Source: Mesoflavibacter sp.
GTDB lineage: Bacteria; Pseudomonadota; Alphaproteobacteria; UBA8366; Aestuariispiraceae
Direction: 5' to 3'
Assembly (NCBI GenBank): GCA_017792345.1
Contig: CP051228.1
Span: 1,860,001 to 1,924,000, forward strand
Length of the DNA stretch: 64,000 bases
Shown: piece after piece, positions 24,653 to 28,532 of the stretch
Position numbering within the stretch: the stretch's first letter is position 1
Layout of the letters: every line of letters begins with the position of its first letter
Made by a program: the position numbers and the translations under genes
Notes under the pieces: generated by a model
Told to the model about the DNA's origin: nothing
Seen by the model: the letters and a program-made list of their open reading frames with translations, nothing else
The model's database searches: none

Positions 24653-24745
24653 CCCTCACCCCAACCCCTCTCCCGGGGGGAGAGGGGCTCTCCGAACGTT
24701 GCAGTGTGACTCCCTCTCCCTCAGGGAGAGGGCCGGGGTGAGGGG
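24653..24745. repeat. Large palindromic repeat between convergent mobA and cobM
   Basis: Outer arms CCCTCACCCC (24653-24662) and GGGGTGAGGG (24735-24744) enclose two inner hairpins at 24665-24687 and 24712-24732, both of the CCCTCTCCC/GGGAGAGGG type. The same style of sequence recurs at 44853-44884 and 61488-61600. It sits between convergent gene ends and could end transcription from both sides. Confidence 0.8.
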
Positions 24746-24747
24746 TT

Positions 24748-25506
24748 TTAGGCCTTCGGGCGCAGCACGTGGTGGTGGGCGGCGTCGTAGAGTTTGCTGT
24801 CGTCGAATCCTTCCGGGTCTAGCACCCGGCCAACCAGGATCAGCGCAGTGCGGGTGAAGCCTGCCGCCTTCACCTTGGGGCGGATGTCGCCAAGCGTGCC
24901 GCGGATGAAGGCCTCGTCCGGCCAACCGACGCGATAGGCGACGACGACCGGGCAATCCTCGCCGTAGTTGGGCACCAGCTCGCGGACCACCTTGGCCAGA
25001 TTGTTGACCGACAGGTGGATCGCCAGGGTCGCGCGGCTTTTGCCCAGCGTCTCGAGATCCTCCCCTTCCGGCATGCCCGACGCGCGCACCGCCGTGCGGG
25101 TCAGGATCACCGTCTGGCCGACACCCGCCAGGGTCAGCTCCGTCTTCAGCGCCGCCGCGGCGGCGGCATAGGCCGACACGCCCGGCGTCACGTCATAGGG
25201 AATTCCCAGAACGTCCAGACGCCGCATCTGCTCCGCCGTCGCGCCATAGATCGACGGATCGCCGGAATGCACCCGGGCGACATCCTGGCCCTTGGCATGG
25301 GCGGCCTCGATCTCGGCAATGATCTCTTCCAGATTCATCGGCGCCGTATCCAGCACCCGCGCCCCGTCCGGCGCGGCGGCGACCACTTCCTCGGGCACCA
25401 GCGATCCGGCGTAAAGGCACACCGGGCAGGACTGGATCAGCTTCAGCCCCCGCACCGTAATCAAATCCGGCGACCCCGGCCCTGCGCCGATAAAGTGAAC
25501 GGTCAT
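24748..25506 (-). CDS. cobM: Precorrin-4/cobalt-precorrin-4 C11-methyltransferase
   Basis: CobM (CbiF) methylates C11 of the corrin ring precursor using S-adenosylmethionine. The 252-residue protein begins [20 protein letters not shown], the SAM-binding glycine loop of tetrapyrrole methylases. It has [15 protein letters not shown] and [12 protein letters not shown], which are diagnostic. It is the last gene of the cob run and is separated from cobJ by the GxxExxY cassette. Its GGAGG ribosome-binding site (25512-25517 region) abuts the left inverted repeat, so the insertion left its translation signal intact. Confidence 0.95.
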
Positions 25507-25517
25507 GATATACCTCC

Positions 25518-25565
25518 AAGAGAACCGCTAAGGTCGCCAAGGGTGGCGCCAAGGACGCCAAGGGG
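25518..25565 (+). repeat. Left inverted repeat of the GxxExxY cassette
   Basis: A 48-base purine-rich arm that begins AAGAGAACCGC and contains repeated CGCCAAG and AAGGACGC units. It ends four bases before the stop of the GxxExxY gene. Confidence 0.75.
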
Positions 25566-25568
25566 TCC

Positions 25569-25952
25569 CTAGCGCTCGTCGAGTCCGTTGACGAAGCGTT
25601 GAATGCCGTCCCGGATTCGGGACGAATTGAAATTGATCAGGAAGCCCAGTTTGAAGCCGCCGAGTTTCAGGTAGTTGAGAATCTGCGCCCTGTGGACGTC
25701 GACGATTCTATCCACAGATTTGATTTCGACCACGACCAATCGGTTGATCAGGAGGTCGAGCCGATACCCCTGATCCACTTCGATATCCTGGTATCGAATG
25801 GGGATCGCGACCTGCCGCTCGACCTGCCAATTGCGCAGCTCCAATTCTCGGCACAGGCTTGCCTCATACGCACTTTCCAGCAGCCCCGGGCCAAGAGCCT
25901 TGTGAACCGTCAAGGCGGCGTCGACGACGGAGCGGCCGATCTCATTCTCCAT
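25569..25952 (-). CDS. GxxExxY protein (PD-(D/E)XK nuclease-like)
   Basis: The 127-residue product has the family signature GLLESAY (G23, E26, Y29). Asp66 in YRLDLLI and E76-I-K78 in VVVEIKSV match the PD-(D/E)XK nuclease core, so a nuclease-like fold is expected. Family function is not established to my knowledge. The ATG at 25952 is the first codon after the right inverted repeat. A longer frame upstream would merely translate that repeat into Lys/Ala-rich residues. It is co-oriented with the cob operon, which it interrupts. Confidence 0.85.
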   Translation of the reverse strand: MENEIGRSVVDAALTVHKALGPGLLESAYEASLCRELELRNWQVERQVAIPIRYQDIEVDQGYRLDLLINRLVVVEIKSVDRIVDVHRAQILNYLKLGGFKLGFLINFNSSRIRDGIQRFVNGLDER

Positions 25953-26000
25953 TCCCTTAGCGTCCTTTGCGACCTTCTTGGCGCTCTTCGCGGTTCTCTT
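25953..26000 (-). repeat. Right inverted repeat of the GxxExxY cassette
   Basis: Read on the minus strand, it begins AAGAGAACCGC at 26000 and matches the left arm at 38 of 48 positions. It encodes the final 13 residues (ENREERQEGRKGR) and TAA stop of the CbiG-CobJ frame. Confidence 0.75.
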
Positions 26001-27798
26001 CTCCCTCCCACTTCCCGGCATAGCCGCGCGGGGTGAAGGCGCGTTGGGTGCCGGAATGGTTGAAGGCGCGGGTTTCGCTGGAGCCGAAGACGACGAGGGT
26101 GAACATATCGACCACCGACGGGTCGAAATCGCGCAGATTGGTGACGGTGACGCTTTCTTCCGGCCGGCCGAGCTGGCGGCACAGGGCGACCGGCGTGTCG
26201 TCCGGGCGATGGGCCAGGAAGGTCTCCCGCGCCTCGGGCAGCAGCGTGCGGCGGCGCTGACTTTGCGGGTTGTAGAAGGCGGCGACGAAATCGCCGCGCG
26301 CGGCGGCGTCCAGCCGTTTGCGGATCGCTGCGACCGGGGTCAGCAGGTCGGACAGGCTGATCAGGCAGAAATCGTGGCCCATCGGCGCGCCCAGCCGCGC
26401 GGCGGCCAGTTGGAAGGCGGAAATGCCGGGCACGACCTCGACATCGACACCGCGCAGGGCGCGGTCTTCGGATTTCTCGATCAGCTCGAACACCAGGGTC
26501 GACAGGGCGTAGATGCCGGGATCGCCGGAACAGATCAGCGAGACCGTCTGTCCCTCGGCGGCCAGGGCCAGGGCCTTGGCGGCGCGCGCTTCCTCCGCCC
26601 CCAGATCGCTGTCATGGGTCGGCCGGTCACCGATCAGATCGGCGGCGAGATCGAGATAGAGTTTATAGCCGACCACCGCGTCCGAGGCCAAAATGGCCCG
26701 CGCCGCAGCGCCGGTCCGGTAATCCGCGTCGCCCGGCCCGATGCCGACGACGAACAGGCGGCCCGGCGCGCGTCCGGCATCCGCATCGACCGCCTTGTCC
26801 CGCGCCCGTGCGATGGCGCAGGTATAGGGGCCGCGCCGCTTCTTCTCGACCGCGAAACGGGCATCGCGCCCGGCCAGCGCCAGGGCGGAGGCCTCGGCCA
26901 CGCCGTGACAGCCGATTTCCTGGAAGACCACATCGGACGGATTCGGCAGATGTGGGGTCAGGGCTTCCAATTCCGCGGCAGTGAACAGGCGGATCGGGCG
27001 AACCAGATGCCGGGACGCCGCCTTCAACGCCGCCTCGTCGCCCTTCAGATCGACCGTGCCGATGGCCGCGACGGCGGACGGGTCCAACCCTTCCTCCGCG
27101 AAGACGTCGTTCAGGAAATCGATCAGTCCCTCCGCCGGGGCATGGCGTTCGCAGCCGATCCCGAGCGCCAGTGTCGGCGGGGTCAGGATAACCTGCCCGT
27201 CCGTCGCGGTGACGGCCCGGTCGGTGATCAGCACATCCGGCGTATCCCCCGGCCCGGCGGTCGAGAAGGAGGCATCATACGGCCAATCGGCGGCCCCGCA
27301 TTCGCGGCGCAGGCGGACGGGTTCCCCGGCCAGCAGACGCGCGGTGACACCCTTGACCGTGTCCGGCGTTTTCAGGGTCCATCCGGCGGGCGGATCGTCC
27401 AGGGCGAAGCCCAGGCGCCGATCTCCGGCGGTGGTCACGGCCGCCGCGCCGCCCAGCCCTTGCGCCAGTCTCTCGGCCAGTGCGTTCGCGCCACGATGAC
27501 CGCCCAGCAGCGGCACGGCGGTCTGACCGTCTTCGGACAGGGCCAGCACCGGCGCATCCTGCCATTTGTCGTTCAGGATAGGCGCCAGGGCCCGGATCAG
27601 GATGCCCGCCGCGCAGAGGCCAACAATGCTCCAGCCCTCGGCATAGAGTGTGCGGATGCAGTCCACCGTATCGTCGAAGTCCCGGTCCGCGCCATCGACA
27701 CGGCCCGTCCGTCCGAAGATTACGGCATCTGGGATCAGGGATTTGACGCGCCGGGCGGTCTCGCCGCCGCGCGCGGTCAGAGCCAGGATCGCGATCAT
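25957..27798 (-). CDS. CbiG-CobJ/CbiH fusion (cobalt-precorrin-5A hydrolase + precorrin-3B C17-methyltransferase)
   Basis: The 613-residue protein fuses two corrin-ring enzymes. Residues about 1-340 resemble CbiG: GLCAAGILIRALAP, a GGHRGANALAERLA segment, and a CobE/CbiG C-terminal part with LGIGCER. Residues about 345-600 are a CobJ/CbiH ring-contraction methylase, with LFVVGIGPGD, CSGDPGIYAL and PGISAFQLAAARLGAPMGHD. CbiG is a mark of the early-cobalt (anaerobic-type) route. Its ATG overlaps the cobI stop (ATGA). The last 13 residues come from the inserted cassette's repeat, so the native C-terminus is altered. Confidence 0.9.
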   Translation of the reverse strand: MIAILALTARGGETARRVKSLIPDAVIFGRTGRVDGADRDFDDTVDCIRTLYAEGWSIVGLCAAGILIRALAPILNDKWQDAPVLALSEDGQTAVPLLGGHRGANALAERLAQGLGGAAAVTTAGDRRLGFALDDPPAGWTLKTPDTVKGVTARLLAGEPVRLRRECGAADWPYDASFSTAGPGDTPDVLITDRAVTATDGQVILTPPTLALGIGCERHAPAEGLIDFLNDVFAEEGLDPSAVAAIGTVDLKGDEAALKAASRHLVRPIRLFTAAELEALTPHLPNPSDVVFQEIGCHGVAEASALALAGRDARFAVEKKRRGPYTCAIARARDKAVDADAGRAPGRLFVVGIGPGDADYRTGAAARAILASDAVVGYKLYLDLAADLIGDRPTHDSDLGAEEARAAKALALAAEGQTVSLICSGDPGIYALSTLVFELIEKSEDRALRGVDVEVVPGISAFQLAAARLGAPMGHDFCLISLSDLLTPVAAIRKRLDAAARGDFVAAFYNPQSQRRRTLLPEARETFLAHRPDDTPVALCRQLGRPEESVTVTNLRDFDPSVVDMFTLVVFGSSETRAFNHSGTQRAFTPRGYAGKWEGEENREERQEGRKGR

Positions 27799-28532
27799 TC
27801 CGCCGCTTCCCCCTTGCCGTCGATCCAGGCGTCCTTGCGGCGATGGACCAGGACCATGCTGAAATAGGGCGCCGTCTCGTTGGGATAGTCGGCCAGCGGG
27901 CAGACGGTCTGCCGGTCGCCCATCGTGGCGTGTCCGACATAGCGCGCGGCATCCGTCAGGCCCGCCGCCTTCAGCGCGCGGCGCAGTTTCGGCAAGTGAC
28001 GGCCGATCTTTATCACCGCCGCCGCATCGATCTGGGTCAGGCGGCGGGTCAGTTCCTCCTCGTCCAGCGGGGCCGGCAGGACGGTCAGAACATCGTTGCG
28101 CGCGGCCAGCGGCGCCCCGGTCGCGGCGGCGGTCGCCATCAGGCTGGAGACACCGGGCACGACCTCGACGGAATAGGCCTCCGACAGCCGCCCGAACAGA
28201 TACATGAAGGAGCCGTAAAAGAACGGGTCGCCCTCGCACAGGACCGCGACGTCGTTTCCGGCATCCAGTTCGGCCGCGATCTCGACCGCCGCTTCGTCAT
28301 AGACCTGCTGCGCCGGGAAGCGTTTCACATCCATCGGCATGCGGATCGGGATTTCCCGGTGGTGGCCGTCCAGATGCGGCGCGGCGATCCCGCGCGCCAT
28401 GGACTCGCCTTCCAGCGGCGCGGGCCAGGCCAGAACATCCGTTTCGCGCAGAATGCGCAGGGCCTTCAGCGTGATCAGTTCCGGGTCGCCGGGGCCGACG
28501 CCCAGGCCGTACAGGGTGCCTTTGGTGCTCAA
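27795..28532 (-). CDS. cobI: Precorrin-2/cobalt-factor II C20-methyltransferase
   Basis: CobI (CbiL) adds a methyl group at C20 before ring contraction. The 245-residue protein has LYGLGVGPGDPELITLKALR, CEGDPFFYGSFMYLF and VVPGVSSLMATAAATGAPLA, all typical. The start is TTG at 28532, overlapping the cobL stop as TTGA. An AAGGAAA site upstream supports it and no ATG occurs until far inside the domain. Coupled translation with cobL and cobJ is likely. Confidence 0.94.
   Translation of the reverse strand: MSTKGTLYGLGVGPGDPELITLKALRILRETDVLAWPAPLEGESMARGIAAPHLDGHHREIPIRMPMDVKRFPAQQVYDEAAVEIAAELDAGNDVAVLCEGDPFFYGSFMYLFGRLSEAYSVEVVPGVSSLMATAAATGAPLAARNDVLTVLPAPLDEEELTRRLTQIDAAAVIKIGRHLPKLRRALKAAGLTDAARYVGHATMGDRQTVCPLADYPNETAPYFSMVLVHRRKDAWIDGKGEAAE

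Follow-up and report, generated by a model that had tools for sequence, protein, structure and literature searches.

Inverted iteron arms, private dialects and gene-less copies of GxxExxY units point to a small and little-known type of mobile DNA

Genes of the GxxExxY family lie between matched inverted arms made of short tandem iterons. These arms, their dialects, and the copies of them that carry no gene point to a type of mobile DNA that is small and little known. In the explanation preferred here, to which we give a probability of roughly 0.6, the unit is self-contained and mobile, and its GxxExxY nuclease would recognise iterons of its own dialect, cut at or near the arms, and drive the spread of both the unit and its miniatures.

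A GxxExxY unit at the cobJ-cobM junction

The window, which is the whole 64-kb stretch of DNA that was analysed, carries one such unit between a CbiG-CobJ fusion gene and cobM, both of them cobalamin (vitamin B12) genes. Its features are as follows.

24748..25506, minus strand, cobM, with GGAGG (25513-25517) directly outside the downstream arm
25507..26010, minus strand, cobJ-cobM junction; GxxExxY unit present in the window genome (G000) and in G003-G005; empty, with a 5-nt gap, in G001
25518..25564, plus strand, downstream arm (in the sense of the gene), four CGCnAAG iterons at 25526-25541 and 25547-25562, outer end AAGAGAACC
25569..25952, minus strand, GxxExxY / PDDEXK_3 gene, 127 aa from the ATG at 25952
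25954..26000, minus strand, upstream arm (in the sense of the gene), four CGCnAAG iterons at 25956-25971 and 25977-25992
25957..28239, minus strand, CbiG-CobJ fusion gene, its final 13 codons and stop inside the arm

The arms are 47 nt long, inverted, and identical at 38 of 47 positions; the initial annotation had given them as 48-base arms with 38 matches, of which the inversion and the matches stand and the length does not. The iteron pair CGCnAAGnnCGCnAAG (16 nt) occurs four times in the window, each time within the arms, where 0.02 occurrences would be expected. Read in the sense of the gene, the upstream arm is CGCGAAG-2-CGCCAAG-5-CGCAAAG-2-CGCTAAG and runs into the likely start codon, its last iteron, CTAAGGGA, directly preceding the GxxExxY ATG. 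The open frame extends back to 26021, with the likely start at MENEIG (ATG 25950-25952), just inside the arm. Nine positions differ between the arms, three at the fourth base of an iteron and six in spacers, and this confinement of the mismatches gave a first hint of iteron recognition rather than base pairing.

The initial annotation had also described the enclosed gene as lower in GC than its surroundings, which is the case (0.57, against 0.67 and 0.69 in the 2 kb on either side), and as encoding a PD-(D/E)XK-like GxxExxY protein, which is borne out below. The CbiG-CobJ frame does read 13 codons into the arm before its TAA stop, and the ribosome-binding site of cobM does lie directly outside the other arm, both as it had stated. 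Its view that the unit is tuned to its neighbours is not retained, since a tolerated insertion at an operon junction could also account for the cobJ overlap and the retained ribosome-binding site. The CTCC that it had seen flanking the unit is present on both sides in the window genome and should not be read as a target-site duplication, because it is not conserved in the near relative G003 (GGGG vs GGAG, in the sense of the gene) and because none above chance was found in 31 Caulobacteraceae elements, in which the best direct-repeat counts are within the shuffled range.

A second type of dispersed repeat is seen in the window at 24653-24745, just 3' of the cobM stop, as an inverted CCCTCACCCC...GGGGTGAGGG palindrome with cores CTCTCCC/GGGAGAG; a similar palindrome adjoins the solo arm in L007, at about 2830-2960. 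No Rfam family matched at gathering score in five loci, and a match to MIR821 in one of 11 loci (L368), at 70.7 bits against a cut-off of 249, was taken as a chance long-hairpin match.

Inverted arms across the GxxExxY family

When species genomes were scanned, GxxExxY loci turned up in many phyla, 46 in all, and a single genome had as many as 22 matches (fragments included). For the arm score, the 3' flank was reverse-complemented and aligned to the 5' flank; the threshold of 20 was set after the first scan had been seen, which covered 44 of the 46 loci, two with short flanks being left out. Further copies, from multi-copy genomes and from relatives, brought the matches to 139, or 108 unique genes, and the main test covered the 105 non-redundant loci among them that had sufficient flank. 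Part of these come from genomes chosen for their many GxxExxY copies, and the loci are not fully independent, since several Chryseobacterium loci share one site. Inverted arms scoring at least 20 are present at 85 of the 105 loci, against none of 105 with shuffled flanks, 3 of 210 shifted positions, and 13 of 625 mismatched loci; 20 of the 105 are below the threshold. The same score is reached in direct orientation at 20 of 105 loci, by eye mostly where the arm is itself palindromic or tandem. Matched inverted arms are thus a family-wide architecture of GxxExxY loci.

The arms consist of C[AG]CnRAn iterons repeated every 9-10 nt, and in 104 of 170 arms the array aligns best with itself at a lag of 9 or 10. 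Agreement between the two arms of a unit is 0.93-0.97 at iteron positions 1-3 and 5-7, 0.72 at position 4, and 0.77 outside the iterons. The contrast between positions 4 and 7 is unbiased, as both were free in the iteron search pattern.

Some GxxExxY genes (L030, L031, L042, L044) appear to have palindromic arms on both sides, as if these were whole miniatures. Two GxxExxY units in a different family, L059 and L061, also occupy the cobJ-cobM junction, and their arms (score 16 in L059 and 23 in L061) are by eye G-rich, with GGGGATA/GGGGATG and not CRCnRAn.

Private iteron dialects

Cross pairing within genomes was restricted to those with three or more GxxExxY copies, giving 66 loci in 12 genomes. 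At 54 of the 66, the two arms of a unit match each other better than either matches any foreign arm from the same genome, and 15 of 354 cross pairs within genomes score 20 or more. The dialect is private to each unit copy within its genome; Asticcacaulis biprosthecium, for one, has several dialects. The classical MITE model, with one shared end per genome, is contradicted by this cross pairing and was rejected.

Over the 85 loci scoring at least 20, the median arm similarity goes from 8 below 45% protein identity to 23 above 70%, where 52 of the 69 locus pairs look like one shared site. A dialect could be defined for 75 of these 85 loci, with 60 left after removal of near-duplicates and 46 used for the genome label. 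On the protein tree, iteron position 7 changes 9 times, against at least 30 times in every shuffle, and 8 times against at least 25 in every shuffle once near-duplicates are removed. Positions 2 and 5 have a weaker tree signal, which without the near-duplicates is not below every shuffle. The host genome changes 32 times on the same tree, the shuffles having a mean of 35.6 and a minimum of 31. The dialect follows the GxxExxY protein tree; the host genome does not.

Gene-less copies

There is one GxxExxY gene in the window genome, with two further arm sites. The first (L006) is a gene-less nested inverted pair with a score of 31, beside trpF and pyrF, and the second is a solo arm after cysS, the gene names at both sites being assigned by eye. 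The pair in L006 was itself spotted by eye and then aligned, the repeat finder not listing it at the settings used. Across 39 genomes, that of the window included, CGCnAAG arm sites number 4 in G000, 2 in G001, 4 in G003, 18 in G004, and 20 in G005, with none in G002 and a single site outside the window genus, in G037. The resident units of G004 and G005 have GAG in the second iteron of both arms, as do 28 of the 34 dispersed sites in these two genomes and none of the 6 in G000, G001, and G003; since the G004 and G005 sites are partly shared or clustered, they represent fewer than 34 independent events. Two gene-less CGCnAAG inverted pairs (L317, L323) are present in G001, where no GxxExxY gene was found in the genome.

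In L006 and L327 (G000 and G003), the CGCnAAG pair encloses a second inverted pair, with CGC[AG]GAG iterons, as if dialects were nested. L319, L335, and L336 (G004 and G005) are tandem clusters of repeats of about 300 nt, each with an arm, and their copy number differs between close species.

In the Caulobacteraceae, a three-iteron CACGAA[AC] pattern has matches in 7 of 62 genomes, each of which belongs to the 23 that carry a GxxExxY gene (P 0.0005); the reversed-pattern control has two matches, in one genome (G097). All four genomes with a CACGAA[AC] unit hold 18-51 arm sites of that dialect, the arms of the unit included. Going by the gene copies that were covered (in G098 three of six, in G123 two of three), dispersed arms of this dialect are present in 4 of 4 genomes with a matching unit and 3 of 19 other GxxExxY genomes (P 0.004). 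Dispersed CACGAA[AC] arms are found in G077, G112, and G123 (16, 5, and 18 sites), where the GxxExxY units with readable arms are of other dialects; one of the two G123 copies examined, out of three in the genome, has no arms.

The nearest inverted pairs in G055 and G053 are 12-197 nt apart, and some gene-less copies reach a length of roughly 250 nt and have an inner part that is conserved. Of the 24 inner sequences, nine make up a single family of 70-92% identity, matching in both directions, with flanks that are mostly unrelated and common only among L364/L366/L369 and L367/L368. The best match between inner sequences and a gene-bearing unit has an E of 0.001. The terminal consensus of 31 Caulobacteraceae elements has aAAGGnTTTTgAC before the first iteron.

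Neighbourhoods and empty sites

Three Asticcacaulis units with near-identical arms and proteins that are 84-87% identical have no common ORF outside the unit, the similarity ending at the arms, and the same is true of the units L101, L121, and L098 (75-83%). L106 and L151 have the gene alone in common, while L044 and L097 share, besides the gene, nothing but frames that seem to derive from repeats. All three relatives read have an empty L036 site, the spacers being too diverged for a base-resolution comparison of these three empty sites; in a match table of 60 genomes the L036 flanks are close together in many other genomes, going by the positions in the table only.

Thirty cobJ-cobM loci were read, including the window: a unit is present in 6, the two genes lie 2-88 nt apart in 23, and one could not be judged, which leaves the junction empty in 23 of the 29 relatives. 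The units of the window, G003, G004, and G005 are one clade in the protein tree (support 70), and those at the same junction in G023 and G029 are another (support 98), so that the junction was entered at least twice. Within its genus the window unit looks vertically inherited. That CobM of G001, with its empty junction, is closer to the window (92% identity) than that of the filled G004 (88%) makes loss in G001 likely, and the empty site there is probably to be read as a loss.

The reading of the locus in the initial annotation as a small mobile unit without a recognisable transposase agrees with the common architecture, the unrelated neighbourhoods, the empty junctions, and the further arm copies. 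It had pointed to the flanks of other GxxExxY genes, to the cobJ-cobM junction in relatives, and to other arm copies in the window genome as the places to look, and the inverted arms at 85 of 105 loci, the 23 empty junctions, and the gene-less pair and solo arm were found there. Homologues do carry arms in their flanks, and empty sites at cobJ-cobM do exist.

A preference for the 3' ends of genes was also considered and dropped, because the long flanking ORFs of 47 elements point toward the element in 49 cases and away from it in 41. G004 and G005 were rejected as a fine-scale pair of filled and empty genomes, the sites compared being mostly shared or in tandem clusters. As there are no phage records with GxxExxY and only six plasmid records, there is no near-identical filled and empty plasmid pair.

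The GxxExxY protein

The window protein scores above the curated cut-offs for TIGR04256 (GxxExxY, 137 bits, cut-off 35) and PF13366 (PDDEXK_3, 139 bits, cut-off 22), the latter being its sole Pfam match. In 32 homologues E49, E59, D89, E99xK101, and Q113xxxY117 are kept (numbered on the 150-aa frame), without exception apart from D89 and K101, which are present in at least 90%. QxxxY is known as a RecB/Cas4 motif. A structure model of the protein has a pLDDT of 89.2. By VIA the nearest solved structure is Cas4 SSO0001 (4ic1), with Z 10.0 over 98 residues, followed at Z 7-8.6 by restriction-endonuclease-like proteins and Holliday-junction resolvases. The best Foldseek E for the model is 3.3e-3, with nothing at 0.001 or better, and the PADLOC match to Cas4b is at 18.5 bits (E 4e-4). 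No sequence relative in the PDB was found at E up to 1, nor any match for GxxExxY in PHROG. On its predicted fold and conserved residues, the GxxExxY protein is a putative Cas4/RecB-like PD-(D/E)XK nuclease.

Where defined, dN/dS is 0.04-0.2 in 11 of 12 pairs and 0.33 in the remaining one, which has very few changes; two further pairs are saturated. By these ratios the protein is under purifying selection. It diverges faster than its neighbour, the window GxxExxY being 61% identical to the G004 copy, with 88% for CobM.

A parallel in the four-helix-bundle genes

Genes for an unrelated family, the four-helix-bundle (S23-type) proteins of TIGR02436, are present in 14 of the 18 GxxExxY-study genomes searched, and 46 of 49 such genes entered the arm test. 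Matched inverted arms are found at 25 of the 46, the controls giving 1 of 92 (shifted) and 1 of 266 (mismatched). These arms, in loci within L167-L216, are heptamer arrays, with a best lag of 7 or 14 in 39 of 50, and in 27 of 31 cases the copy has a dialect of its own. The Coxiella 23S rRNA intervening sequence (IVS) is described as an S23-protein element with inverted ends and with tandem heptamers before the gene (PMC4990558). We infer that the 23S rRNA insertions would belong to this four-helix-bundle kind of unit. Transitions in the four-helix-bundle arms have a modest excess of the G-U-compatible type (45 vs 25 incompatible), and RNA stems may matter there.

Explanations for the spread of the units

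In the preferred explanation the unit consists of one small gene for a putative Cas4/RecB-like nuclease between inverted iteron arrays that form its ends. Each lineage of units has its own iteron dialect, alike in both arms, and in some genomes gene-less inverted pairs of the same dialect are dispersed as miniature elements. The nuclease would most likely recognise the iterons of its own dialect and cut at or near the arms, and copying into new sites may then be completed by host replication or repair. We infer that binding and cutting of the arms, and with them the movement, are the work of GxxExxY. It is favoured as the mover because a mover must be dialect-specific and GxxExxY is the only dialect-linked protein in the unit, and because it is a conserved nuclease and Y1 transposases (PF01797) were not found in the window genus (G000-G005) or in G053, G058, G077, G110, G112, and G123, nor between the repeats of the window. 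In its favour are, as observations, the matched arms, the private dialects and their fit to the protein tree, the unrelated neighbourhoods, the empty sites, the dispersed gene-less copies with their conserved inner sequence, the conserved catalytic residues, and the purifying selection. Counted against this explanation are the unmatched miniatures (G077, G112, G123, G001), the 20 low-scoring loci of 105, the lack of a target-site duplication, the single-copy and vertical-looking window unit in its genus, an enzyme class not known to join DNA, and the Y1 matches in G055 and likewise in G042, G056, G061, and G063.

It might instead be that the unit and its miniatures are truly mobile with GxxExxY as a cargo or regulator, and that a host or element enzyme of loose specificity moves any inverted iteron arrays. 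PD-(D/E)XK nucleases cut DNA and, to our knowledge, are not known to join it, so that joining needs another activity. The parallel arms of the unrelated four-helix-bundle family would suit such an enzyme, as would the genomes that hold miniatures with no matching unit found. There are also four Y1-transposase matches in G055, the genome with the most dispersed sites. One general enzyme would not explain, however, why each copy has a dialect of its own and why these dialects track the GxxExxY tree, and Y1 transposases were not found in the genomes listed above, so this explanation is considered rather unlikely.

Quite improbable is a role for the arms in RNA, where they would form a long stem around the gene, as an insulator, terminator, or RNase III substrate, with selection on pairing keeping the match. 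The predicted RNA fold does pair the arms (MFE -218.6, z -4.15), the stem of the Coxiella IVS is reported to be cut by RNase III (PMC4990558), and there is the G-U-compatible excess in the four-helix-bundle arms. In the GxxExxY arms themselves, however, 183 transitions are G-U-compatible and 184 incompatible, which gives no sign of RNA-stem selection. Iteron position 4 is not kept complementary, and the tandem iterons and the dispersed copies at unrelated flanks would be left unexplained.

That GxxExxY is an ordinary, vertically inherited host gene with autoregulating operator repeats, for which the purifying selection and the single clade in the window genus might speak, is largely refuted by the alike units in unrelated neighbourhoods, and is made very improbable indeed by these together with the dispersed gene-less pairs, the empty sites, and the absence of a host signal in the gene tree.

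Relationship to known systems

RAYTs are mostly single-copy, and orphan REPs exist. In the RAYT-REP system as reported, the gene lies between inverted repeats, repeats and protein co-vary, the RAYT evolves faster than its neighbours, and its presence accompanies an abundance of cognate repeats that occur as inverted doublets (PMC2817692, PMC3116915). The GxxExxY unit likewise has flanking inverted repeats, co-variation of repeat and protein, fast evolution of the gene, and cognate dispersed repeats, which would suggest that it works like a RAYT-REPIN system; the gene is bounded by the inverted dispersed repeat in the window genus and in 4 of the 7 Caulobacteraceae genomes where CACGAA[AC] sites are present. 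Because both the enzyme and the head of the repeat differ, the unit does not belong to that system. The enzyme is a predicted PD-(D/E)XK nuclease where the RAYT is a Y1 HUH transposase, and in place of the GT(A/G)G-headed palindrome of REPINs there are tandem 9-10-nt iteron arrays, with ends aAAGGnTTTTgAC in the Caulobacteraceae and AAGAGAACC in the window. Some gene-less copies also differ from REPINs in being up to some 250 nt long and in having a conserved interior.

Like MITEs and their parent transposons, the gene-less copies are short elements with terminal inverted repeats that are related to a gene-bearing element; unlike them, they have no target-site duplication that was found, no known transposase, and an inner sequence that does not clearly match the unit (best E 0.001). 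The 23S rRNA IVS with an S23 protein is similar in its size of about 0.4-0.5 kb, its inverted ends, and its one small gene, and its tandem heptamers in Coxiella resemble the period-7 arms of the four-helix-bundle genes seen here. The window unit differs from it in protein family, in site (cobJ-cobM rather than a 23S rRNA gene), and in period (9-10 rather than 7). The GxxExxY protein has the D-ExK-QxxxY residues of Cas4 and RecB-like nucleases and probably a similar fold, but it is shorter than these and has the cobalamin genes CbiG-CobJ and cobM as neighbours rather than cas1/cas2 or a CRISPR array. No description of arms around GxxExxY genes was found in what was searched of the PMC literature.

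Implications

It is possible, and is proposed here tentatively, that these units are a new class of mobile element in which a Cas4-like nuclease alone would specify the iteron ends and on which dialect-matched miniatures would depend, with a parallel S23/heptamer class as the free-living source of the IVS. The heptamers of the 23S rRNA intervening sequences would in this way be linked to a wider class of free-living units. The widespread GxxExxY gene would gain a context, as part of a replicator system that resembles REPINs but uses another enzyme. The private dialects, each paired with its own protein, would make a protein-DNA specificity code directly testable.
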